From contig JAEUWD010000017.1 in NCBI GenBank assembly GCA_016786485.1, positions 62,001 through 126,000 on the forward strand: a stretch of DNA of 64,000 bases, in the 5' to 3' direction. How positions within the stretch are numbered: the first letter of the stretch is position 1; every line of letters starts with the position of its first letter. Shown here piece after piece: positions 1 to 58,632 of this stretch. The notes under the pieces were generated by a model. The model did not search any database. It was not told the DNA's origin and saw only the letters and a program-made list of their open reading frames with translations. Source of the DNA: Bacteriovoracaceae bacterium. Lineage in GTDB: Bacteria > Bdellovibrionota > Bacteriovoracia > Bacteriovoracales > Bacteriovoracaceae. The position numbers were made by a program, and so were the translations under genes.

Positions 1-670
1 GTTCTAATGGATTGACGGCGGTTTCTTCAAGTTCTGGCATCATCTCTGGATTTTCTTTAAACTTCTTTAAATCTTCAAATGGTGTTCCATCCAGTGGTTT
101 CTTGGTTGAAAGGCTGCGATCGGCTGTTTCATAAAAGATTTCACTACCGTTCATGTTAACTGCCACGAAGAAGTCTTTGCCAACTTCTAAATTAATTCTG
201 CCATTATCACCACTGTAGGCACCTTTTTCATCAAAAGGTCGCGTAAGTGTTTTAAATCCAGAAAAAATATATCGGTTACCAACACGACGGTTAGCAATAC
301 CCAATGCTTGTGTGCGAAGCTGGTTAATTTCTTTGGCCACACTTTCTCGAACCTGTGGATTATAAATATCAGAAGATTGACCAATGGCGATTTCCTTAGC
401 TTTAGATACGAGTTCGGTTAGATCCGAAATCGCTTGTTCAGTGTATTCCAGATACATTTTGGCGTAGTTGGTATTCCGTGTGTACTGATCGTTATCAACT
501 TTCTTCGAACGAATGGCCATTAATTCAACGTTACCAATAGGATCATCTGATGGCTTTTGTACCTTCTTCAAATTCGAGCCCTTAATTTGTAGATCTTCCA
601 TGTGGCTCTTAGCTTTTCCTAAGGAAAAGTTAATTGCATGCGATGTACTACCTTCAGAAACTCTGGTCAC
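1..670 (-). CDS. flgL: Flagellar hook-filament junction protein FlgL (3' end outside window)
   Basis: This is the second hook-filament junction protein, placed between FlgK and the flagellin filament. About 223 residues are visible and the C-terminus runs off the left edge. I chose GTG at 670 because AGGAG stands five bases upstream and the reading opens TRVSEGSTSHAINF, followed by the flagellin-like heptad region with KVQKPSDDP near residue 40. Further on, an NRYIFSGFKTLTRPFD stretch is characteristic of FlgL/flagellin N-domains. It follows flgK by eight bases and is the last visible gene of the flgJ-M-N-K-L run. Assignment is firm. Confidence 0.93.
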   Translation of the reverse strand, partial: MTRVSEGSTSHAINFSLGKAKSHMEDLQIKGSNLKKVQKPSDDPIGNVELMAIRSKKVDNDQYTRNTNYAKMYLEYTEQAISDLTELVSKAKEIAIGQSSDIYNPQVRESVAKEINQLRTQALGIANRRVGNRYIFSGFKTLTRPFDEKGAYSGDNGRINLEVGKDFFVAVNMNGSEIFYETADRSLSTKKPLDGTPFEDLKKFKENPEMMPELEETAVNPLE

Positions 671-678
671 CTATGCTC

Positions 679-2142
679 CTAACGTTTGATATCCAAAACA
701 GTTTTAAACATTTCATCCGCCGTTTTAATAACTTTTGCGGATGCATCATATGCATGTTGGAACTTTACTAAGTTCGCTGTCTCTTCATCGATTGAAACTC
801 CAGAAATACGCTCTTTCACCGTTTTAGCTTGGGAAAGAATACCGAGAGATTGTTCTTTATCAATTTTCGTTTTGCTTGTAACAAGCGCAATTTCTCCAAC
901 TGAATTCAGGTAACCTTCTTCAAAAGTTGTTGTGCCATCATGTAAAACTTTTTCATGTTGTAGTTTTGAGATGGCGATAGAAATTCGGTTATCACCTGGC
1001 TTGTTTGGTTCAAGTCCAGTGACAATATTATTAACATCTTTTTTTACATCTTCGCTTAAATCTAGATACTCAGCTGCGCGATGCAAATCCAGTGGTTCCT
1101 TAAAGAAATCGATACCAGTGATCTTTCTTTCAGCCGCAATCCCACGATCCAAAACTCGGCCGTTTTCATCGACCTCAAGCGGAACGTTGATATAACCACG
1201 ACGGTGAATTGCATTCACGCTGTGGGTAAGTTCGAAGGCCACGCGATCAAGATGATCTTCTAGTCTTTTAATTTCGTTATTTCGAGTTTCTAAAATTGCA
1301 CCCAGCTTTCCCGACTTCAATTTCGGTGAAACAGGGCCGACAGAGCGATTTTTAAAGAAAATTTCGTAGTGACCAATATCTTCGGTATTTGTATTAATAG
1401 TACCGTGTTTAAGTTCGCTTATTTCACCACCGACAACTAATGAACCAACATTGGTAGCATTGATAACAAAACGATTTCTTTCATCAGCGTAAGTTTGAAT
1501 GTCCATAAGCTCCGACAATTCAAGCACGACTTTATCTCGCTGGTCACGCAAGTCACCTGTTTCATGCGCAATTGCTTCAAGTTCAGCAATTTTTTGGTTG
1601 AGACCTCTCACGTGATGAAGCATGGTATTGATATCTTCAACAGTTGCTTTCATTTTACTATTAATATTTTCTCTTAAATCTTGGAGAGTGCTACGCATAC
1701 GTTTAAAGTCATTAACAACTAAACGCGCATTTTCTCGAACGATTGATCGTACCGTTTCATTTTCAGGCTGGTTGGCCAGTTCGCGGAAAGAGTTAAAGAA
1801 ACGATTCATCAGTTTATTTAAACCATCGGAATGAACTTCGTTAAAAATATCTTCGACTTGAGAAAGTTGGAAACTGCGCTCTTCGTTAAAGTTATGTTGT
1901 GTGACGGCTTGGTGAATACGTTTTTCAACATGTTCGTCGTGAACTCGTTTAACGTTTTTTACATCTGCACCAGTACCAAGAACATAGTTACCTTCTCCAA
2001 TAGGGCGTGAAGCTTCAGTGTGAACACGTTGACGTGAGTAACCTTCTGTATTTGAGTTGGCAATATTGTGCGAAGTAGTCGAGAGCTGCTTCTTGGCAAC
2101 ACTTAAACCCGATCGACCAACTTGTAACAAATCAACTGCCAA
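679..2142 (-). CDS. flgK: Flagellar hook-associated protein 1, FlgK
   Basis: FlgK is the first junction protein added to the hook tip. It is exported by the flagellar type III apparatus. The N-terminal rod/hook motif is clear (SHNIANSNTEGYSRQRV, residues about 25-42). The C-terminal helix contains NLVKFQHAYDASAKVIKTAD, the partner coiled coil of the axial family. At 487 residues it is shorter than the enterobacterial protein (about 547), with the loss in the variable central domains. It lies between flgN (its chaperone) and flgL with gaps of 8-9 bases, so it is surely in one transcript. Confidence 0.97.
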   Translation of the reverse strand: MAVDLLQVGRSGLSVAKKQLSTTSHNIANSNTEGYSRQRVHTEASRPIGEGNYVLGTGADVKNVKRVHDEHVEKRIHQAVTQHNFNEERSFQLSQVEDIFNEVHSDGLNKLMNRFFNSFRELANQPENETVRSIVRENARLVVNDFKRMRSTLQDLRENINSKMKATVEDINTMLHHVRGLNQKIAELEAIAHETGDLRDQRDKVVLELSELMDIQTYADERNRFVINATNVGSLVVGGEISELKHGTINTNTEDIGHYEIFFKNRSVGPVSPKLKSGKLGAILETRNNEIKRLEDHLDRVAFELTHSVNAIHRRGYINVPLEVDENGRVLDRGIAAERKITGIDFFKEPLDLHRAAEYLDLSEDVKKDVNNIVTGLEPNKPGDNRISIAISKLQHEKVLHDGTTTFEEGYLNSVGEIALVTSKTKIDKEQSLGILSQAKTVKERISGVSIDEETANLVKFQHAYDASAKVIKTADEMFKTVLDIKR

Positions 2143-2151
2143 AACTCCTCC

Positions 2152-2643
2152 CTATTTAGTCGTTCCGTGCGCAGTGTATGTTTGATAATTCTTTTTACCG
2201 CTGAAAGTATTTTTAATATCTTTTAAATTCTGCATAGCTCGGTTGAGAAAAATTTGGTTTTTCTTATTTTGAGCTTGAATGCGTTCGATAATATCCACTA
2301 ACAGTAGGTTGAATTTACTTAGATGCTGTCCCGATTTTTCTAATTCGAACTGCTTAAGACACTCAATCAGATCATGAATATTAAGGATTTCATTTTCAAA
2401 AATTCTTTCTTGATTGATTTCTGCAATAAACAACTTTCTTTCTTCTTCGATGTTACCAATTTGGATTAGTAATTGTTCTTTGTGTTTTACCGTTTGTTCA
2501 AGAGCATCGAAGTCGCTTGCTAGTAAATTAGCATACTCCTCACAAGTGAGGTCATAGAGGAGCGTGTGAAGTTCGCAAAACGTTCGCCAGAGATGAATCA
2601 AGCGATCATATGCAAAATTCTGTTTTAAACTTTGTTCGTTCAT
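2152..2643 (-). CDS. flgN: FlgN-type export chaperone
   Basis: This 163-residue, almost wholly alpha-helical protein lies immediately upstream of flgK, the usual position of FlgN, the cytosolic chaperone that delivers FlgK and FlgL to the export gate. The final segment (FLNRAMQNLKDIK, then a TYTAHG-like tail) matches the FlgN ending with an aromatic-Gly motif. Sequence identity to model FlgN is expected to be low, so the call rests on fold-like features plus location. Gaps to flgM and flgK are 8 bases each. Confidence 0.8.
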   Translation of the reverse strand: MNEQSLKQNFAYDRLIHLWRTFCELHTLLYDLTCEEYANLLASDFDALEQTVKHKEQLLIQIGNIEEERKLFIAEINQERIFENEILNIHDLIECLKQFELEKSGQHLSKFNLLLVDIIERIQAQNKKNQIFLNRAMQNLKDIKNTFSGKKNYQTYTAHGTTK

Positions 2644-2651
2644 AATTTAAC

Positions 2652-2981
2652 CTAAAATTCCTGGCTTAACATGCGGTCAGCGATTTCATCGTAATTGACC
2701 TGATATTCGCCCTTTTGAATTTGTGATTTGAGTCGTGCAATTTTTTCTGAGTTGTCGATAGCAGGAGCGGCATCCACTGCTGATTTAATACGAGCGAAAT
2801 CTCTTACGGCATCTGTAATTTCAACTTTCGCGTCGCCTGATGTTTTGCCTTGAAGTTCTGATTCTCTTTCAACCGTGTTTCTTCGAAGAGGAGCAGTTTC
2901 ACCTCGAGCAACTTTCGTTGCGCCCGTTTTTGAATTCGGGAAAAAAGAGTTGCGGGTGTTTAAGTCAATTTCTCTACTCAT
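2652..2981 (-). CDS. flgM: Anti-sigma-28 factor FlgM
   Basis: FlgM binds the flagellar sigma factor FliA until the hook is complete, then leaves the cell through the export channel. This 109-residue protein has a Ser/Thr/Arg-rich, probably disordered N-terminal half. It then has the FlgM C-terminal block, with EKIARLKSQIQKGEYQVN followed by DEIADRMLSQEF. Its start overlaps the end of flgJ by eight bases, so translation is coupled. Its presence implies a FliA-dependent late class elsewhere in the genome. I found no convincing FliA-type promoter inside this window. Confidence 0.9.
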   Translation of the reverse strand: MSREIDLNTRNSFFPNSKTGATKVARGETAPLRRNTVERESELQGKTSGDAKVEITDAVRDFARIKSAVDAAPAIDNSEKIARLKSQIQKGEYQVNYDEIADRMLSQEF

Positions 2982-3318
2982 GAGAGATCTCCTTGTCAGT
3001 CGACGGTTTCATTTTAGGCATATTGCCTGAGACAGCTTTTGGCTTAAGATTTTGAGGTAAAATTTGTTCTAAAATAAGTTTTTTTATACCAAGTCCACCG
3101 TTTGGATCTTTCGCCATTAGTTTTGCACGTTCATGATCCATAACAGAATTATAATAATTTAAAGCGGTACTGTCTGGTGTTTCTTGTTGCACTGATTTTC
3201 TCATCTCTTGAATGAGATGTTCTGAAAACTGAGTATCCATTGCTTCCGCAACTTGCTCATAAGGCTTTCTGGCCTGTTCAATTGTCATTGGTTTGCGAGC
3301 GTTGACAGTTAGTGACAC
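2974..3318 (-). CDS. flgJ: Rod-binding protein FlgJ, N-domain only
   Basis: This 114-residue protein matches the rod-capping domain of FlgJ: QVAEAMDTQFSEHLIQEMRK near residues 22-41, then a YNSVMDHERAKLMA segment and GGLGIKKLILEQI. The muramidase domain found in enterobacterial FlgJ is absent, which is common outside gamma-proteobacteria. A separate enzyme must therefore open the peptidoglycan for the rod. It is the first gene of the flgJ-M-N-K-L set, preceded by a 98-base gap after flgI. Confidence 0.85.
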   Translation of the reverse strand: MSLTVNARKPMTIEQARKPYEQVAEAMDTQFSEHLIQEMRKSVQQETPDSTALNYYNSVMDHERAKLMAKDPNGGLGIKKLILEQILPQNLKPKAVSGNMPKMKPSTDKEISHE

Positions 3319-3416
3319 TCAATACCATCCTGGTTTCTAGAAGATCATCAATCCTAGACGATCTTAATTTATACTAACACATTTTGCCATTTTTGTCCTA
3401 AAACAAAAACGGTCAC
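3319..3416 (-). promoter_or_regulatory. Intergenic hairpins between flgI and flgJ
   Basis: Two inverted repeats are visible. Positions 3387-3412, read on the minus strand, form a ten-pair stem with one G-U and a six-base loop. It starts five bases after the flgI stop but lacks a clean U-run. Positions 3341-3365 have AAGATC and GATCTT arms with a 13-base loop. Between them lies a minus-strand TATAAA (3368-3373) that could be the -10 of a promoter for flgJMNKL, but I see no good -35. Function is a guess: mRNA end processing or partial termination followed by re-initiation. Confidence 0.35.
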
Positions 3417-4421
3417 TTAAATTAACTCGAGCTCAGCTACGAGTACGCCGTTTTTCTTCAGCGTTTGAAAAATCGATATCAGATCCTCTGGTGTAGTTCC
3501 TATCGCATTTAGAACTTTTACCAGATCGCTTATCGTAGAAGTTTGCTCAAGTAAGTGAACCGATTTACGACCAGTTGGACTCGATCCATCATTCACTTCA
3601 ATGACCATATCACCATGACTAATAGCTGACTTTTTTAGTGTGATTTCACCACCGGCCACAATCGTGCCAGTTCTTTCGTTGATAACGATTTTCGCTGCGG
3701 TATCAGAGATAACTTTAAAGTTCTCGAGTATGGCAATTAACTCCACCACGTTTCGTTGATAGTTAGGAGGGACGACCAAATCGATTGTTGCTGAATCTTT
3801 GGCATCCGCAAATTTACCACCCAGTTCTTGATTGATAGTTTTTTCTAGACGAGCGGCAGTTGTGAAATCAGGGTTTTTAAGGGCCAAACGAATTGCTTGT
3901 TTCTTATTAAAATCCAGATTAATTTCTTGTTCCACCGTACCGCCACTTGGGATTTTGGCCGTCGTTGCGAACTTAGCACCTTGTTTTAAGCCACCAATTG
4001 AAATGGGTCCACTTGCGACAGAGTAGATTTTTCCGTCACCACCTTTAAGTGGCGTTACCATCAGCGTTCCACCGGCCAGCGAACTTGCGTCGCCAATAGA
4101 CGAAATAGTGATATCAATTTTTTGTCCAACTCGCGCAAAAGGAGGCAGGTTCGCTGTTACAATAACAGCTGCAACGTTAGCCGAAGCTACGTCGGCTTTT
4201 GGATCAAAACCTAAGGTCTGAAACATTTTTTTAAGTGAGGTATTGGTAATTTCACCACCGCTATCGCCAGTTCCATTCAGACCGATAACTAAACCATATC
4301 CTATGAGTGGATTGTCACGAACACCTTTAATCGAAACTAAATCTTTGATTCGATTCGACGATTCGTTTCCAAATGAGTTTGTAGTAACCAAGAAAAGCAT
4401 GAGTAAGAAAATCATTTTCAT
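3417..4421 (-). CDS. flgI: Flagellar P-ring protein FlgI
   Basis: FlgI forms the periplasmic bushing around the rod in the peptidoglycan layer. The protein is 334 residues, with a Sec signal peptide (residues 1-19, ending NSFG). The family core follows: IKDLVSIKGVRDNPLIGYG, then GLNGTGD, VIVTANLPPFARVGQKID and DASSLAGGTLMVTPL. The C-terminal SDLVKVLNAIGTTPEDLISI block is also present. It is slightly shorter than the usual 345-370 residues. It follows flgH by four bases and is the last gene of the flgF operon. Confidence 0.97.
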   Translation of the reverse strand: MKMIFLLMLFLVTTNSFGNESSNRIKDLVSIKGVRDNPLIGYGLVIGLNGTGDSGGEITNTSLKKMFQTLGFDPKADVASANVAAVIVTANLPPFARVGQKIDITISSIGDASSLAGGTLMVTPLKGGDGKIYSVASGPISIGGLKQGAKFATTAKIPSGGTVEQEINLDFNKKQAIRLALKNPDFTTAARLEKTINQELGGKFADAKDSATIDLVVPPNYQRNVVELIAILENFKVISDTAAKIVINERTGTIVAGGEITLKKSAISHGDMVIEVNDGSSPTGRKSVHLLEQTSTISDLVKVLNAIGTTPEDLISIFQTLKKNGVLVAELELI

Positions 4422-4425
4422 AAAT

Positions 4426-5190
4426 CTACCTTATAACAAAAATTTGTGATTCTAAGATTCTATCTGAAGTAATCGTGTCATCATTATTAAGATCACGCTT
4501 GGCGATCAAGCCCTGAAAATCAACATAGTGTTTTTGCTTTCGGAAAAGAACTTCTTTTTGACCACGAATGAGAACATAGTCTTTACTGATAATTTCAGTG
4601 ACTTGAGTTGAAATTTTATCGTAAATTTTGGCCGTTTCATCATCTTTATCTGCGGCGGCATCTGCGGCAGGCGCTGCCGTCGCTGCTGGAGCTGGTCCCG
4701 CGGCTGTTTTAGCTAGAGGGTCAGGTTTTTTTATCTCTTCTTTTGGGAAAGCACGTTTTAGTTCATTGGCAATATCATTTTTTAAATTTTCTAGGACATC
4801 GACGATGATGATATCGCCCAAAGCTTTTGATTTGTTTTGTGAGAAAAGAAAATTTTCTTTATCTTGTCCTGCCCACAAACTACCAGCATATTCGTTATCT
4901 TGTAGATCATCAGCAGTATAGCGACGTCTGCTATCTTGATATTGCCTTTTCACTTTTGGCTGAGTTTCAGCTTGTTCTGCTTGTGAAAAAGTGACGGGAT
5001 TAGCAATTGGTCGCTTGTCAAAATTTCTACGATTGAACGGGTTGTTTTTATAAGCCTGAAATGGATCCGGCTTAACATTCTTCATCTGGGTGCTCTTTTC
5101 TTCTTGTTCAATCATGCGATGTATTTTATCGATATAGCCAGCGCATGAGCTAAGAGTGGAAAGGGTGATGATAATAAAAATTTTCTTCAT
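4426..5190 (-). CDS. flgH: Flagellar L-ring lipoprotein FlgH
   Basis: FlgH makes the outer-membrane ring. A lipobox LSSC places the lipidated Cys at residue 16. The family signature YAGSLWAGQDKENFLFSQNK near residues 100-120, followed by GDIIIVDVLEN, is clear. The C-terminal strand block (VLIRGQKEVLFRKQK, then DFQGLIAKRDLNNDDTI) is also clear. Unusual is a low-complexity Ala/Pro segment at about residues 150-182, inserted between the two conserved halves. The family normally has a short linker there. Gaps of 4 and 10 bases link it to flgI and flgA. Confidence 0.9.
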   Translation of the reverse strand: MKKIFIIITLSTLSSCAGYIDKIHRMIEQEEKSTQMKNVKPDPFQAYKNNPFNRRNFDKRPIANPVTFSQAEQAETQPKVKRQYQDSRRRYTADDLQDNEYAGSLWAGQDKENFLFSQNKSKALGDIIIVDVLENLKNDIANELKRAFPKEEIKKPDPLAKTAAGPAPAATAAPAADAAADKDDETAKIYDKISTQVTEIISKDYVLIRGQKEVLFRKQKHYVDFQGLIAKRDLNNDDTITSDRILESQIFVIR

Positions 5191-5200
5191 ATTCGTTCTC

Positions 5201-6076
5201 TCACAATTCGATGGTAAGCTCGTTAAAGCCCGTTATTTTTGCATTTATTTTTTTCTTATTAGTTGGGTTATAAGCTTCGATCACTTCATTGATTGCACCT
5301 GTGCCGCGTGAAATAACTCGACTTTTTACCACAACGCTTTTTGAGCGAACAAAAAGTTGAGCTTCCTTCCCATAAGTGGTGAGTTTGGTTGGTACAAGAT
5401 GATTGGCAGTTAGTGTTTCACCTTTAGCTATCGTTTTACCAGTTTTATAAAACGCTAGGATTTCAGCATTTTCAAAAAGGTTAGTATCATCAGAAGCTAA
5501 GATTTTCTTATTTGTTAAGTGACGGTTTTGAATTGTATTAAAAGCAGGGATTGTTTCTTCAGCGATCAAGGCATTGCGGTAGCGAAGAATATTAGCACTC
5601 GTCCAAATTTCTTGTTGGTCACATTGTAATACTAAATTTTTATTACCAGTTCTTTCTAAATTTACTTCATTAGTTTTGATATAAGCACTATGGCAATTAG
5701 CGAAGGCTTTTTTATTAATAAAGCTAGCTGTTACTGGTTCTAAGTTTTCGTTCAGGCTTAAAGCCTTTTTAACGAAACTATTTAAGTCATTAACCGAAAT
5801 GGTTTCTGGGGTAATATGGATTTGGTCATTTGGAAATGTATCTGCCAACATAAAATTGATCTGTTTATTTTTTAAATCACCAGATGAGTTCACGATCAGA
5901 CTTCTGAAAGCAGTCAGTATTTCTGGACTACAGTCAGAGCTTGAAATAAAAGCCGTTTGGTCAGTCTGTGCCATTTTTGCATCGGCGAGAATAATGTGTG
6001 CATAGCTTGTTAGTTGGCAAGCACTAGCTGCAAAAACACTCTTACTCATTAAAAATAGAAAAAATAGTTTCATCAT
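5201..6076 (-). CDS. flgA: P-ring assembly chaperone FlgA
   Basis: FlgA is a periplasmic chaperone that helps FlgI polymerise. A cleavable signal peptide (FFLFLMSKSVFAAS) is followed by a weakly conserved N-terminal region. Then comes the SAF-type module at about residues 175-260, with the family order of a threonine-rich turn (GKTIAKGETLTANHL) and an AQLFVRSKSVVVKSR strand. At 291 residues it is longer than the typical 220-235, with the extra length at the N-terminal side. It sits two bases from flgG and ten from flgH. Confidence 0.85.
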   Translation of the reverse strand: MMKLFFLFLMSKSVFAASACQLTSYAHIILADAKMAQTDQTAFISSSDCSPEILTAFRSLIVNSSGDLKNKQINFMLADTFPNDQIHITPETISVNDLNSFVKKALSLNENLEPVTASFINKKAFANCHSAYIKTNEVNLERTGNKNLVLQCDQQEIWTSANILRYRNALIAEETIPAFNTIQNRHLTNKKILASDDTNLFENAEILAFYKTGKTIAKGETLTANHLVPTKLTTYGKEAQLFVRSKSVVVKSRVISRGTGAINEVIEAYNPTNKKKINAKITGFNELTIEL

Positions 6077-6078
6077 TT

Positions 6079-6864
6079 TTACTTTATATTATTAGTAACT
6101 TGTAAAATTTGGTCAGCAACACCCATTACTTTTGAATTCATTTCATATGCTCTTTGTGCCTTAATTAAACTGGTCATTTCATTCATGATGTTTACGTTCG
6201 AAGCTTCGAGCATTCCTTGCTGAACAGTGGCCGCATTGTTTTCACCAGGAACATTTTGAATAGCATCACCACTACCGGTTGTTGCTCCATAAAGATTCTT
6301 GCCTTCAGAGCGTAAGCCGGTTGGGTTGATAAAAGTAAAAACAGGGATCTGTCCTAAGTTTTGTGGTTCGGGATTATCTTTAAATTGTGCTTCGATATTT
6401 CCATTTTCAGAAATATTTAGATAAGCGGTGTTTGATGGTACGGTAAAACCTGGATAAAGCTTATGTCCGTTTTTTGTGACGACAGTTCCTGTCGCATCTA
6501 CGGTGAAAGCACCGTCACGCGTGAATTTGATCTGGCCTTTAGAATCAATAATTCCAAAAAAACCGTCTCCATTTAAAAGGAGGTCATATGGATTATCAGT
6601 TACCATTGGGTCACCTTGTGAATGTTCTTTTCTTGTCGCTGAAATTTTAGCACCCGAGCCAATTTGGGTTCCGACGCTGTATTGTGAAGTCGCAGAAGAA
6701 CGTGCACCAGCTTCTTCGACTGTTTGATAAAGCAAATCTTCAAACTCGGTTCGGGATTTTTTAAAACCTACGGTGTTAACGTTGGCAATATTGTTTGAAA
6801 TATTGTTAACGTTAGACTCTTGTGCCGCCATTCCTGTCGCTGCAGTATTTAAAGCCTTAAGCAT
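6079..6864 (-). CDS. flgG: Distal rod protein FlgG
   Basis: FlgG polymerises into the distal rod that crosses the P and L rings. Length (261 residues) is exactly the family norm. The N-terminus has the rod motif NNISNNIANVNTVGFKKSRTEFEDLLYQ and the C-terminus has LEASNVNIMNEMTSLIKAQRAYEMNSK. Repeated YDLLLNGDGFFGI and KFTRDGAF blocks are the central D1 signature. It lies 20 bases downstream of flgF in the sigma-54-driven operon. Confidence 0.98.
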   Translation of the reverse strand: MLKALNTAATGMAAQESNVNNISNNIANVNTVGFKKSRTEFEDLLYQTVEEAGARSSATSQYSVGTQIGSGAKISATRKEHSQGDPMVTDNPYDLLLNGDGFFGIIDSKGQIKFTRDGAFTVDATGTVVTKNGHKLYPGFTVPSNTAYLNISENGNIEAQFKDNPEPQNLGQIPVFTFINPTGLRSEGKNLYGATTGSGDAIQNVPGENNAATVQQGMLEASNVNIMNEMTSLIKAQRAYEMNSKVMGVADQILQVTNNIK

Positions 6865-6884
6865 TACTTCCTCCCAGAATCAAA

Positions 6885-7712
6885 TTAAAATTTCGCAATA
6901 TCATTAACTGCTCTTCCTGTAATATTGTCATAAGCATTGATCGCTTTCTGAATTGATTCGAAATGACGATGAGCTTTAATTAACTCGGCCATCTCTTCTA
7001 CTGAATTAACATTTGATTGTTCTATAAAACCCTGGTGAACAAGAGTTTTACTTGGTTCTGTTAAAATATTTTCAGTCTTGTTATTTACATAAAGGGAGTT
7101 GCCTTCTTTTTTTAAGGCATGAATATCTTTAAATTCCACTACTGAAATTTTCCCAATCATGACATCGCCTGCAAAGATTTGACCTTCGTTAGCAATGGAT
7201 AATTTTGCATTAGGGATTTTGATAACTCTTTCAGCGGGATTTAAAACGGTATTCGTATCAGTACCAGCTGCTGCTTGATTTGTTTCCGCTAAGAGTTTGT
7301 AGCCATTTTCTGTTACCAGTTCACCGTCTTGAGAAATAGTGAAGGCGCCGTTACGTGTGAAGCGAACACCATTCGGCGCTAAGACTTCAAAGAAACCATC
7401 GCCTTGCAAGCCCAAATCAAGTGGTGCTCCGGTTGGTACGAGTTCACCTTGTGTGTGTTCGGTGAAGCTACCATCAACTCTGACCTGAGAATTTTCTGCA
7501 CCTTGTGTGCGATAAAAATCAGCAGGTGACCACTCTTTTCTTGGAAGATCAATTTCATCACTGCCTTTCTCGAGGGCAGTTAAATATTCCTTGAAGACGA
7601 GTTTATCTTTTTTAAAGCCGGCGGTGTTCGCGTTTGCGACATTGTTAGCTATCGTTTCAATTTTATTTTGCTGGGCGATCTGGCCTGACAACGGAACCCA
7701 TATATTTTTCAA
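6885..7712 (-). CDS. flgF: Proximal rod protein FlgF, TTG start
   Basis: FlgF is a rod subunit between the proximal rod and FlgG. I place the start at TTG 7712, giving 275 residues. It has GGAGG five bases upstream (7718-7722) and a family-like N-terminus (KNIWVPLSGQIAQQ). The next upstream ATG (7751) adds 13 unusual residues and would lie only about a dozen bases from the predicted sigma-54 start site. Core motifs are TIANNVANANTAGFKKD, LGLQGDGFFEVLA, RFTRNGAFTIS and the C-terminal SNVNSVEEMAELIKAHRHFES. It is the first gene of flgFGAHI. Confidence 0.93.
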   Translation of the reverse strand: MKNIWVPLSGQIAQQNKIETIANNVANANTAGFKKDKLVFKEYLTALEKGSDEIDLPRKEWSPADFYRTQGAENSQVRVDGSFTEHTQGELVPTGAPLDLGLQGDGFFEVLAPNGVRFTRNGAFTISQDGELVTENGYKLLAETNQAAAGTDTNTVLNPAERVIKIPNAKLSIANEGQIFAGDVMIGKISVVEFKDIHALKKEGNSLYVNNKTENILTEPSKTLVHQGFIEQSNVNSVEEMAELIKAHRHFESIQKAINAYDNITGRAVNDIAKF

Positions 7713-8038
7713 GGCAGCCTCCGCAAGTTCTCGTGCACATCCTTGTGACAATTGAACTCACAAGGAAATTTTAGCAAGCACTATGCCAAATAATCATCAC
7801 GGGCAAAAAGATCCCCATGACTTAACTTCTTAAATTTTCATGATTAGCAGAGTAAATTGATCGGTCTTGCATGGAATAAAATTCCGGGAGGGTTGATGGC
7901 CTAAAAAGACATTTTTTTATCTTGTTATCCAAGCTTGTGAAATCATTTGTTTTTGATGTAGTGTAGAGTGGAATTTTAAATGAAGAAAAAATGACACTCA
8001 TTTAGCTCCCAGTCAAAAAAATGCCAGAGAGGATTAGT
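7713..8038. other. Divergent intergenic region flgF / xseB
   Basis: These 326 bases separate two divergent operons. They hold the sigma-54 site on the minus strand near the flgF end. They also hold a small GGAAT-AAA-ATTCC inverted repeat at about 7870-7882. A weak sigma-70-like pair on the plus strand, TTGTGA (7935) and TAGTGT (7959) with an 18-base spacer, could serve xseB. The first ATG at 8021 lacks a ribosome site, whereas ATG 8039 has GAGAGGA in front. No further gene or RNA is evident. Confidence 0.5.
7772..7789 (-). promoter_or_regulatory. Sigma-54 promoter of the flgF operon
   Basis: Read on the minus strand the site is TTGGCATAGTGCTTGCTA. This matches the RpoN pattern TGGCAY-N5-TTGCW with GG and GC spaced by ten bases. 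Transcription would begin near 7763, leaving a leader of roughly 50 bases that contains the GGAGG of flgF. This supports RpoN control of the rod and ring operon, a scheme known in several flagellated bacteria. The activator-binding site is not identified. Confidence 0.8.
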
Positions 8039-57048: not shown

Positions 57049-58632
57049 ATGATTGACTGGAACACGATTAAGGATCTTCATGTTATCAGTAAGTTGGAAG
57101 AGATTATCGGCAACTGGTTTGGTGTCGAACTAATCTACACTAACGAACATGGAAAAATACAAAACTCAATTCATGATAAAAATTATGAATTTAAAAATCA
57201 TTTCTTTAAAGTTCAAACCCATATTTCACATGGCCTTGAATATTTAAATTCAGATATTGAAAAAATGTTTGAGAAATTTGAACAAGGTGAACATGGAACA
57301 CTGATTACTGAATCATTCTTCCAAGGTGTAAAAACCGTTTGTGTTCCTATCATTCATGAGAGTGAGCTATTGGGATGTGTTTTTGCTTATCCATATGTAA
57401 AAGATGATTTCACGAGTGAAGAATCAGATGCACTTGTAAAAAAACTCGTTGAGTGTGGTTCGTCAACTGATGATGCGAAATCAGCCGTTTCACACTTGAA
57501 AAAATTAAATCTACAAGAAAAAGAATATTTAAAAGAATTAGTAAGCCTAGTTGTTCACGAAATTATCACATTTCACCAAGAGATTTCTAAGCGTGAAAAT
57601 ATGATCAAAGACCTTAACTCAGAGCTTGGTAGTAAATATCGCTACCACAACATGATTGGTAAAGCGAAGTCGATGCAAGTGGTTTATCATTTGCTAGATA
57701 AGATTTCTAAATCAGAATCAACCATTCTAATTCAAGGTGAAAACGGAACAGGTAAAGAACTTGTTGCGAAAGCCATTCACTACGCTTCACCTCGTAAAGA
57801 CATGGTTTTCTTAGCGCAAAACTGTTCAGCTTTTAACGATAACCTTTTAGATTCAGAATTATTTGGTCACGTCAGAGGCGCTTTTACTGGTGCTGTGAAA
57901 GATAAGAAAGGTCTGTTTGAAATGGCCAACGGTGGAACTCTGTTCTTAGATGAAATTGGTGATACTTCGCTTGCAATGCAAGTTAAGTTACTCCGAATTC
58001 TACAAGAAGGTACTTTCCTTCCAGTTGGTGCCACTTCTCCAAAGAAAGTTAGCGTGCGAATTATTGCAGCTACGAATAAACCGTTAAAAGAAATGATTCA
58101 AAAGGGAGAGTTCAGAGAAGATCTTTACTACCGATTGAATGTTATTAACGTAACATTGCCTCCATTGCGTGAAAGACGCGAGGATATCCCACTTCTGATC
58201 GAGTACTTTGTTGAAAAACGCTGTGCTGAAATGGGTCTTCCGACTAAGCAATTTTCGAAGAAGTGTTTAGAGAAATTAATTGATTATTCATGGCCAGGCA
58301 ACGTTCGTGAGCTTGAAAACGAAGTCGAGCGACTTGTAGTTCTTGCCGGTGAAGATAAAATGATCACTCCAGAAATCCTAAGCGGAAAAATGATGGAAGT
58401 GAGTGACAATTTCCCAGGAGTTAAAGGTGTTCGTACCACTGGTAAATTAAAGGATGCTTTAGAAGAGCTGGAAGCTTTAATGATTCGCGAAGGTTTGAAG
58501 CGTTGCAATTATAATAAATCCAAACTGGCCAAGGAATTGGGAATCAGCCGTGCGGGCTTGATTATGAAAGTTGAAAAGTATGGGTTTGATAAGCGTACAA
58601 AATTCGCCGTTAACGAAAGCGAAGAAGATTAG
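57049..58632 (+). CDS. Sigma-54-dependent activator with PocR/GAF-like sensor
   Basis: This 527-residue bacterial enhancer-binding protein activates RpoN promoters using ATP. The AAA+ core has Walker A GENGTGKE (230-237), the sigma-54 contact loop GAFTGA (277-282) and Walker B GGTLFLDE (295-302), plus LREREDIP-like and SWPGNVRELEN motifs. A Fis-type helix-turn-helix lies at the end (CNYNKSKLAKELGISRAGL). The N-terminal 180 residues have no phosphoacceptor receiver. They resemble a PocR/GAF-type small-ligand sensor (GVKTVCVPIIHESELLGCVFAY). CAGGAG lies nine bases before the ATG. Confidence 0.9.
   Translation: MIDWNTIKDLHVISKLEEIIGNWFGVELIYTNEHGKIQNSIHDKNYEFKNHFFKVQTHISHGLEYLNSDIEKMFEKFEQGEHGTLITESFFQGVKTVCVPIIHESELLGCVFAYPYVKDDFTSEESDALVKKLVECGSSTDDAKSAVSHLKKLNLQEKEYLKELVSLVVHEIITFHQEISKRENMIKDLNSELGSKYRYHNMIGKAKSMQVVYHLLDKISKSESTILIQGENGTGKELVAKAIHYASPRKDMVFLAQNCSAFNDNLLDSELFGHVRGAFTGAVKDKKGLFEMANGGTLFLDEIGDTSLAMQVKLLRILQEGTFLPVGATSPKKVSVRIIAATNKPLKEMIQKGEFREDLYYRLNVINVTLPPLRERREDIPLLIEYFVEKRCAEMGLPTKQFSKKCLEKLIDYSWPGNVRELENEVERLVVLAGEDKMITPEILSGKMMEVSDNFPGVKGVRTTGKLKDALEELEALMIREGLKRCNYNKSKLAKELGISRAGLIMKVEKYGFDKRTKFAVNESEED

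Follow-up and report, generated by a model that had tools for sequence, protein, structure and literature searches.

The window analysed here, a 64,000-nucleotide stretch of the genome of a Bacteriovoracaceae bacterium, carries at its left end a minus-strand run of flagellar genes from flgF to flgL (Table 1). Just beyond the left edge, flgL is followed by csrA and then fliW, also on the minus strand (C45:60540-61418; also L076), so that the genes for its post-transcriptional control may be part of the flgF run itself; flgF to fliW may form one transcript. The most likely start of flgF is the TTG at 7712 (MKNIWVPLSGQIAQQ): the listed open reading frame opens at 7751, and family members open at the residue matching 7712. 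Upstream, the divergent xseB at 8021 makes the -24/-12 site intergenic. Read with its flanking bases as TTGGCATAGTGCTTGCTA (7789-7772, minus strand), the site places GG and GC ten bases apart and ends 60 nt before the TTG. The promoter-like site that the initial annotation had described, with its pattern, strand, ten-base GG-GC spacing and distance of about 60 bases from the flgF TTG, is thus confirmed in every particular. A candidate TGCC-N13-GGCA dyad lies between the upstream box and the -24 element.

Table 1. Features of the flgF gene run and its upstream region (window positions), with related boxes elsewhere in the genome (contig positions).
Feature	Position	Strand	Basis
-24/-12 (RpoN-type) site TGGCATAGTGCTTGCT	7773..7788	-	pattern match; orthologous sites in other families
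Overlapping extended -10 TGCTAAAAT (TGnTAnnnT)	7768..7776	-	TAnnnT in register in 32/43 orthologs
Family-conserved box GGATCTTTTTGCC (family consensus GGanAATTTTGCC)	7802..7814	-	28 nt upstream of -10
Perfect inverted repeat, predicted 5' leader	7740..7766	-	arms 7758-7766 and 7740-7748; folding
CACA[AGGA]TGTG hairpin, candidate CsrA-binding site	7736..7747	-	23 nt before start codon
Shine-Dalgarno-like GGAGG of flgF	7718..7722	-	
flgF (TTG start at 7712)	6885..7712	-	Pfam/NCBIfam
flgG	6079..6864	-	Pfam/NCBIfam
flgA	5201..6076	-	Pfam/NCBIfam support; NCBIfam match below its cut-off
flgH	4426..5190	-	Pfam/NCBIfam support; NCBIfam matches below their cut-offs
flgI	3417..4421	-	Pfam/NCBIfam
Rod-binding (flgJ-type) gene	2974..3318	-	
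flgM (anti-sigma-28)	2652..2981	-	
flgN	2152..2643	-	
flgK	679..2142	-	
flgL (flagellin family), extends past window edge	1..670	-	
GGMAAAWTTTTCC, near-palindromic, before flagellins	C22:219868; C25:13171, 13190; C40:62746; C58:16387		

Within the window, TGGCAY-N5-TTGCW has no exact match other than the flgF site. Shuffled versions of the window hold a mean of 0.15 exact matches and at least one in 14 of 100 cases, so that the window match alone is suggestive and not significant. This shuffle count is what favours a chance match that is functionless in this species, a reading that the position, the orientation and the orthologous sites in relatives render very improbable. On a score whose weights were set by hand from the RpoN consensus, the flgF site reaches 30 and the best site in the other flagellar runs scanned in this genome 27, in keeping with its earlier description as the clearest regulatory match in the flagellar block.

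The genome holds one rpoN gene (C29:68243-68722), and rpoN matches occur in 56 of the 59 genomes searched. Over the whole genome (2.98 Mb), the exact pattern is found 23 times, against 4 for the reversed control pattern; with up to one mismatch, the counts are 247 and 140, respectively. Together, the single rpoN and the 23 versus 4 exact sites make an RpoN regulon likely. By inspection, 21 of the 23 exact sites have a co-directional open reading frame of at least 80 aa beginning no more than about 300 bp downstream, the two exceptions being L003, whose sole such frame is nested in a longer opposite one, and L011, which lies within a gene. By eye, many of the products downstream of the exact sites (L001-L023) open with a signal-peptide-like stretch, which suggests a surface or secretome regulon of RpoN in this genome. 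The site before flgF is the only one of the 23 recognized as flagellar.

In the flagellar runs scanned, namely the flgB operon, the fliL-fliA run, flgL-csrA-fliW and the left end of the window (C56:15271-30665, C29:10346-21912, C45:60540-62670 and window 1-8021), the coding strand carries no other exact or one-mismatch site and a few two-mismatch sites of score 26-27. The nine flagellin genes of the genome likewise have no exact or one-mismatch site upstream, with best scores of 18-23. Activators that could serve RpoN are present: five carry GAFTGA and one GAYSGA, and the gene for one of these six (C56:33967-35511) is separated from the flgB operon by about 3.5 kb. Within the window, positions 57049-58632 (plus strand) encode a GAFTGA-containing RpoN activator, flanked, as judged by eye, by ribosomal/rpoA-like genes on one side and carboxylase-like genes on the other.

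Comparison with other families of the phylum places the site in an older context. The named close relatives in the contig search are metagenome-assembled genomes labelled Bacteriovoracaceae, Halobacteriovoraceae, Bacteriovorax, Bdellovibrio, Bdellovibrionales and Oligoflexia. Of 13 genomes outside the family, 7 have a site of score at least 28 upstream of flgF, as compared with 0.2% of random 130-nt windows; three of the remaining flgF regions score 26-27 and three 19-22. An RpoN-type site also precedes flgF in a contig named Bdellovibrionales (L107). When stretches of 3-8 kb were scanned on the flgB strand, 11 of the 13 genomes showed a site of score at least 28 either ahead of the operon or directly in front of flgB, the two without one belonging to family f12. 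These counts make RpoN control of both the flgF and flgB operons look ancestral, and probably it is. In several families, the flgB operon opens with a large reading frame of about 730-980 aa (C56:27668-30415 in this genome; L235-L263), and in most flgB operons outside the family a gene for an enhancer-binding protein comes after it.

Within the organism's own family (f1, Bacteriovoracaceae-like, a label taken from the search output), an extended -10 element that overlaps the -12 element is conserved more strongly than the -12 C. Among 43 distinct flgF orthologs, the two G residues of the -24 element are kept in 35 and 30 and the G of the -12 element in 30, and the -12 C is unconstrained (13 of 43, with A in 16, G in 9 and T in 5; 0.11 bit). 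The T, A and T of the overlapping TAnnnT are found in 35, 39 and 38 of the 43, and in 32 orthologs TAnnnT stands in strict register. The TTGC(T) of the -12 element is common to both -12 and TGnTAnnnT, and this longer motif is itself conserved among the orthologs (G of its TG in 30 of 43). The set comprises 32 orthologs from f1 genomes and 11 contig-collection loci, the latter assigned to the family by FlgF identity (50-64%) and not by taxonomy; L193 (identical to L105) and L109 (same upstream region as L053) are omitted, and the poorly alignable rows L027, L045, L099, L191 and L192 are counted. A sigma-70 scan gives no site overlapping 7768-7800, and the extended -10 has no -35 hexamer at 16-18 nt; in the extended -10 class of promoters, a -35 hexamer is optional. 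Of the other exact RpoN sites in the genome, 22 in all, none has TAnnnT after it, as against 2 of 20 RpoN-type flgF or flgB sites in other families.

These figures bear directly on the simplest account, in which the RpoN holoenzyme would drive flgFGAHI with the help of another GAFTGA activator, the register of TAnnnT being a by-product of the A+T-rich stretch downstream of -12. The exact consensus, the genome-wide excess of sites, the equivalent sites in other families and the GAFTGA or GAYSGA activators of the genome, including the one near the flgB operon, all agree with this account. So do the RpoN scores of family flgF regions, which stay above chance: 7 of 41 score at least 28 (random 0.2%) and 16 of 41 at least 26 (random 1.6%). 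In a 12-row clade that includes this species, GG-N10-GC is present in 6 rows and GC alone in 2 more, which is a further point for the account and suggests that RpoN use may persist here. Less easily accommodated are the lack of TAnnnT after every other exact site of the genome, the free variation of the -12 C across the family and the lack of exact or one-mismatch sites in the other flagellar runs examined. We consider the account to have an appreciable likelihood, well short of even. The eight promoters that combine GG-N10-GC with TAnnnT are scattered on the FlgF tree, whose bootstrap is not settled (7 changes against a shuffled mean of 7.5, with 215 of 500 shuffles as low), and 6 of the 8 fall in the 12-row clade of this species; from this scatter and clustering, the exact match seen here may be retained or partly accidental. 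Use of RpoN at flgF in this organism, alone or shared, would stand at about even odds.

The flgB operon of the family points further from RpoN. None of 19 family flgB-operon upstream regions reaches a score of 28 (best 24, this genome 18), the operon starts being those of the longest reading frames, which may be off; among the loci, L253 is too short and G004 comes without an upstream stretch. In place of an RpoN-type site, many of these regions show, by eye, a sequence resembling AAAATTTTCC and an element of TAnnnT type.

A second line of evidence comes from the activator encoded beside flgB (C56:26712-27647, L194). This 312-residue protein matches the Pfam families Sigma54_activat and HTH_8; its top NCBIfam match, below the cut-off of that model, is FlbD, and the Pfam scan finds no receiver domain. 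Matches at an E-value of 1e-45 or better occur in 35 of 37 f1 genomes. GAFTGA is absent from all 29 family activators read, a number that excludes L208 (unreadable) and five without a locus. The Walker B acidic pair DE is absent from the same 29, with N at the E position, and Walker A is kept in every one; the Fis-type helix-turn-helix is retained in the protein of this genome. Outside the family, 8 of 11 flgB-adjacent activators read, by their position putative counterparts of the family proteins, keep GAFTGA or GSFTGA together with DE (three in f3, one in f8, three in f9 and one in f11), and three are degenerate (two in f12, one in f6). In two f7 genomes, no activator was found beside flgB in the stretch read, yet the sites are present. 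The f12 genomes, with degenerate activators, no flgB site and flgF regions scoring 26 and 22, are in line with a joint loss of activator motifs and sites; contrary to such a loss, G041 of f6 combines a degenerate activator with good RpoN sites.

The hierarchy in which RpoN controls flgFGAHI, as deduced in the initial annotation, therefore holds up in part. The presence of rpoN, the genome-wide set of sites and the flgF sites of other families speak for it; the other flagellar runs and flagellin genes, the activator without GAFTGA and Walker B residues, and the stronger conservation of the extended -10 element than of the -12 C speak against it, so that an RpoN flagellar hierarchy within the Bacteriovoracaceae-like family appears doubtful.

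In characterized systems, RpoN-dependent flagellar promoters are served by activators of the FlgR, FlrC and FleR type. Such promoters are described in Helicobacter, Campylobacter, Vibrio and Pseudomonas (PMC3930126, whose available text mentions neither Bdellovibrio nor GAFTGA). As far as these systems are covered there, the locus resembles them in having a -24/-12 site before rod/ring genes and differs in the unconserved -12 C, the overlapping extended -10 and the degenerate linked activator. Another precedent is offered by the GAFTGA-less NtrC proteins of Rhodobacter capsulatus and Caulobacter, which regulate sigma-70 promoters (PMC10274813). Judging from the available part of that source, deletion of the GAFTGA loop is common to those proteins and the activator described here, which by contrast adjoins flgB, shows no receiver domain in Pfam and, in all 29 family members read, is missing the Walker B acidic residues too. 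Among the literature matches listed, the accessible text reports neither RpoN flagellar control nor a GAFTGA-less flagellar regulator in this Bacteriovoracaceae-like family; the main text of PMC12316311 and PMC3162934 makes no mention of Bdellovibrio.

Upstream of the promoter, a motif search run without any promoter model returned a 24-base motif containing GGanAATTTTGCC. Its TT and CC are invariant in 38 rows with a clear box, rows that were chosen for having it. Exact copies of GGMAAAWTTTTCC number 7 in this genome, against 0 for the control, and 5 of them stand upstream of 4 of the 9 filament flagellin genes; the boxes of flgF and flgB are weak versions of this flagellin-gene box. Operators of the FleQ type are 14-bp palindromes with an A+T core; GGMAAAWTTTTCC is alike in size and layout and differs from them in its flanking bases. 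The box is probably an operator. In the other 36 family genomes, the exact box is not enriched (116 against 111 in the control), which weakens the case for a family-wide operator role, and flagellar neighbours are found at only 2 of 30 box loci listed (L269, a flagellin; L278, FliL-like); given both results, the box is claimed only for the flagellins of this genome and for the flgF alignment. A search with the box at a spacing of N13-15 misses the site of this genome (spacing 12) and was left unused.

The same block could instead belong to a FliA (sigma-28) promoter, in which a TTA-like -35 would precede GCCYRTG by about 18 nt. The true transcription start would then lie about 30 nt upstream of the -24/-12 start and about 10 nt downstream of GCCCGTGA. 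Both fliA and flgM are present, and L026, from the same clade, has TTAAG-N17-CCGATA; attack-phase promoters of Bdellovibrio are given as TTAAG-N16-CCGATA in the available text of PMC3627812. Yet a constant TTA -35, tested across 38 rows, is not constant, TTA standing at either of its two most frequent offsets in just 16 of them. The family consensus GCCYRTG is without the CCGATA core, and the conserved half of the block is the palindrome-like GGanAATTTTGCC. By eye, TTAAG-N16-CCGATA is absent from the flgF upstream region of this genome. Transcription by FliA from this block thus appears unlikely.

Downstream of the promoter, folding of the flgF leader gives a four-pair stem that presents AGGA at its tip, CACA[AGGA]UGUG. 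Taken alone, this fold is weak (z = -1.53; 16 of 200 shuffles fold as well). Across the family, 18 of 39 flgF leaders present a looped GGA closed by four or more pairs, against a mean of 3.6 and a maximum of 8 in shuffles. The AGGA hairpins of relatives (L024-L053) are mostly placed over the Shine-Dalgarno sequence, and their stems covary. In 20 leaders with ribosome-site hairpins, a set that was chosen for the hairpin, which favours structure, and from which the leader of this genome was left out, covariation is 0.641 as compared with 0.266 for shuffled and at most 0.238 for slid alignments. Two weaker measures separate less clearly from shuffles: all six pairs change on both sides (4.5 when shuffled; 28 of 500 as high), and further pair types number 15 (13.1 when shuffled; 100 of 500 as high). 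Stems of five or more pairs occur in 11 of 19 flgB-operon leaders (0.65 in shuffles), and at the head of this operon the genome and several relatives carry hairpins resembling GAAACAGGAAGTTTC. The perfect inverted repeat at 7740-7766 was also considered as an operator for an enhancer-binding protein and rejected: its sequence is unshared, and what relatives share is AGGA in a loop with changing stems.

The AGGA hairpin of the flgF leader is, on this comparative evidence, a probable CsrA site. In Campylobacter jejuni, flagellar leaders bound by CsrA include that of flgI, and flgH mRNA co-purifies with the protein, although deletion of csrA does not substantially change FlgI levels, according to the available text of PMC4894983. 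To the extent that the C. jejuni CsrA-FliW system is described there, the present locus shares with it a GGA hairpin at or near the ribosome site and the presence of csrA and fliW; here the predicted site heads the flgF operon, in a gene run that ends in csrA-fliW.

Taken together, these data may be explained by an ancestral RpoN promoter that has been overlaid by an extended -10 promoter. The explanation as a whole is in our view as likely to be right as wrong, a judgement in which the promoter columns and the activator carry most of the weight. The flgF site would descend from an RpoN promoter that served this operon long ago, over which, within the family, an extended -10 of sigma-70 type would have been laid in place, with a sigma-70-type factor as the one presumably used. 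The flgB-linked activator, a relative of FlbD and FlgR, has lost its GAFTGA loop and the Walker B acidic residues. This protein, or another dimeric regulator, may now work on the sigma-70 polymerase at the boxes, in the manner reported for the NtrC of Rhodobacter capsulatus. In this species, the -24/-12 pair is intact, by chance or by retention, and RpoN may still bind it, be it as an additional or a residual input. At the level of the mRNA, CsrA would probably bind the AGGA hairpin, with its antagonist FliW encoded at the far end of the run.

More tentatively, and at a little under even likelihood, the family may have undergone an in-place switch of the sigma factor of its flagellar regulon. 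The ancestral RpoN flagellar activator would in that case have lost GAFTGA and its ATPase residues, the flgB-operon promoters would have lost their -24/-12 elements, and TGGCAC and TTG would be kept in flgF mainly as parts of the extended -10 and the regulatory region. The present species would be an intermediate served by both polymerases, with a CsrA-FliW layer on top. Promoters of the RpoN and sigma-70 kinds are commonly regarded as having no relation to each other. A caution that follows from this locus is that one good consensus match is insufficient to infer an RpoN flagellar hierarchy. Should the switch prove true, the orthologous promoters of this group would range from a clean -24/-12, via overlap, to an extended -10 only, accompanied by decay of the activator, and the exchange of sigma factors in evolution would become directly testable through single-base changes.
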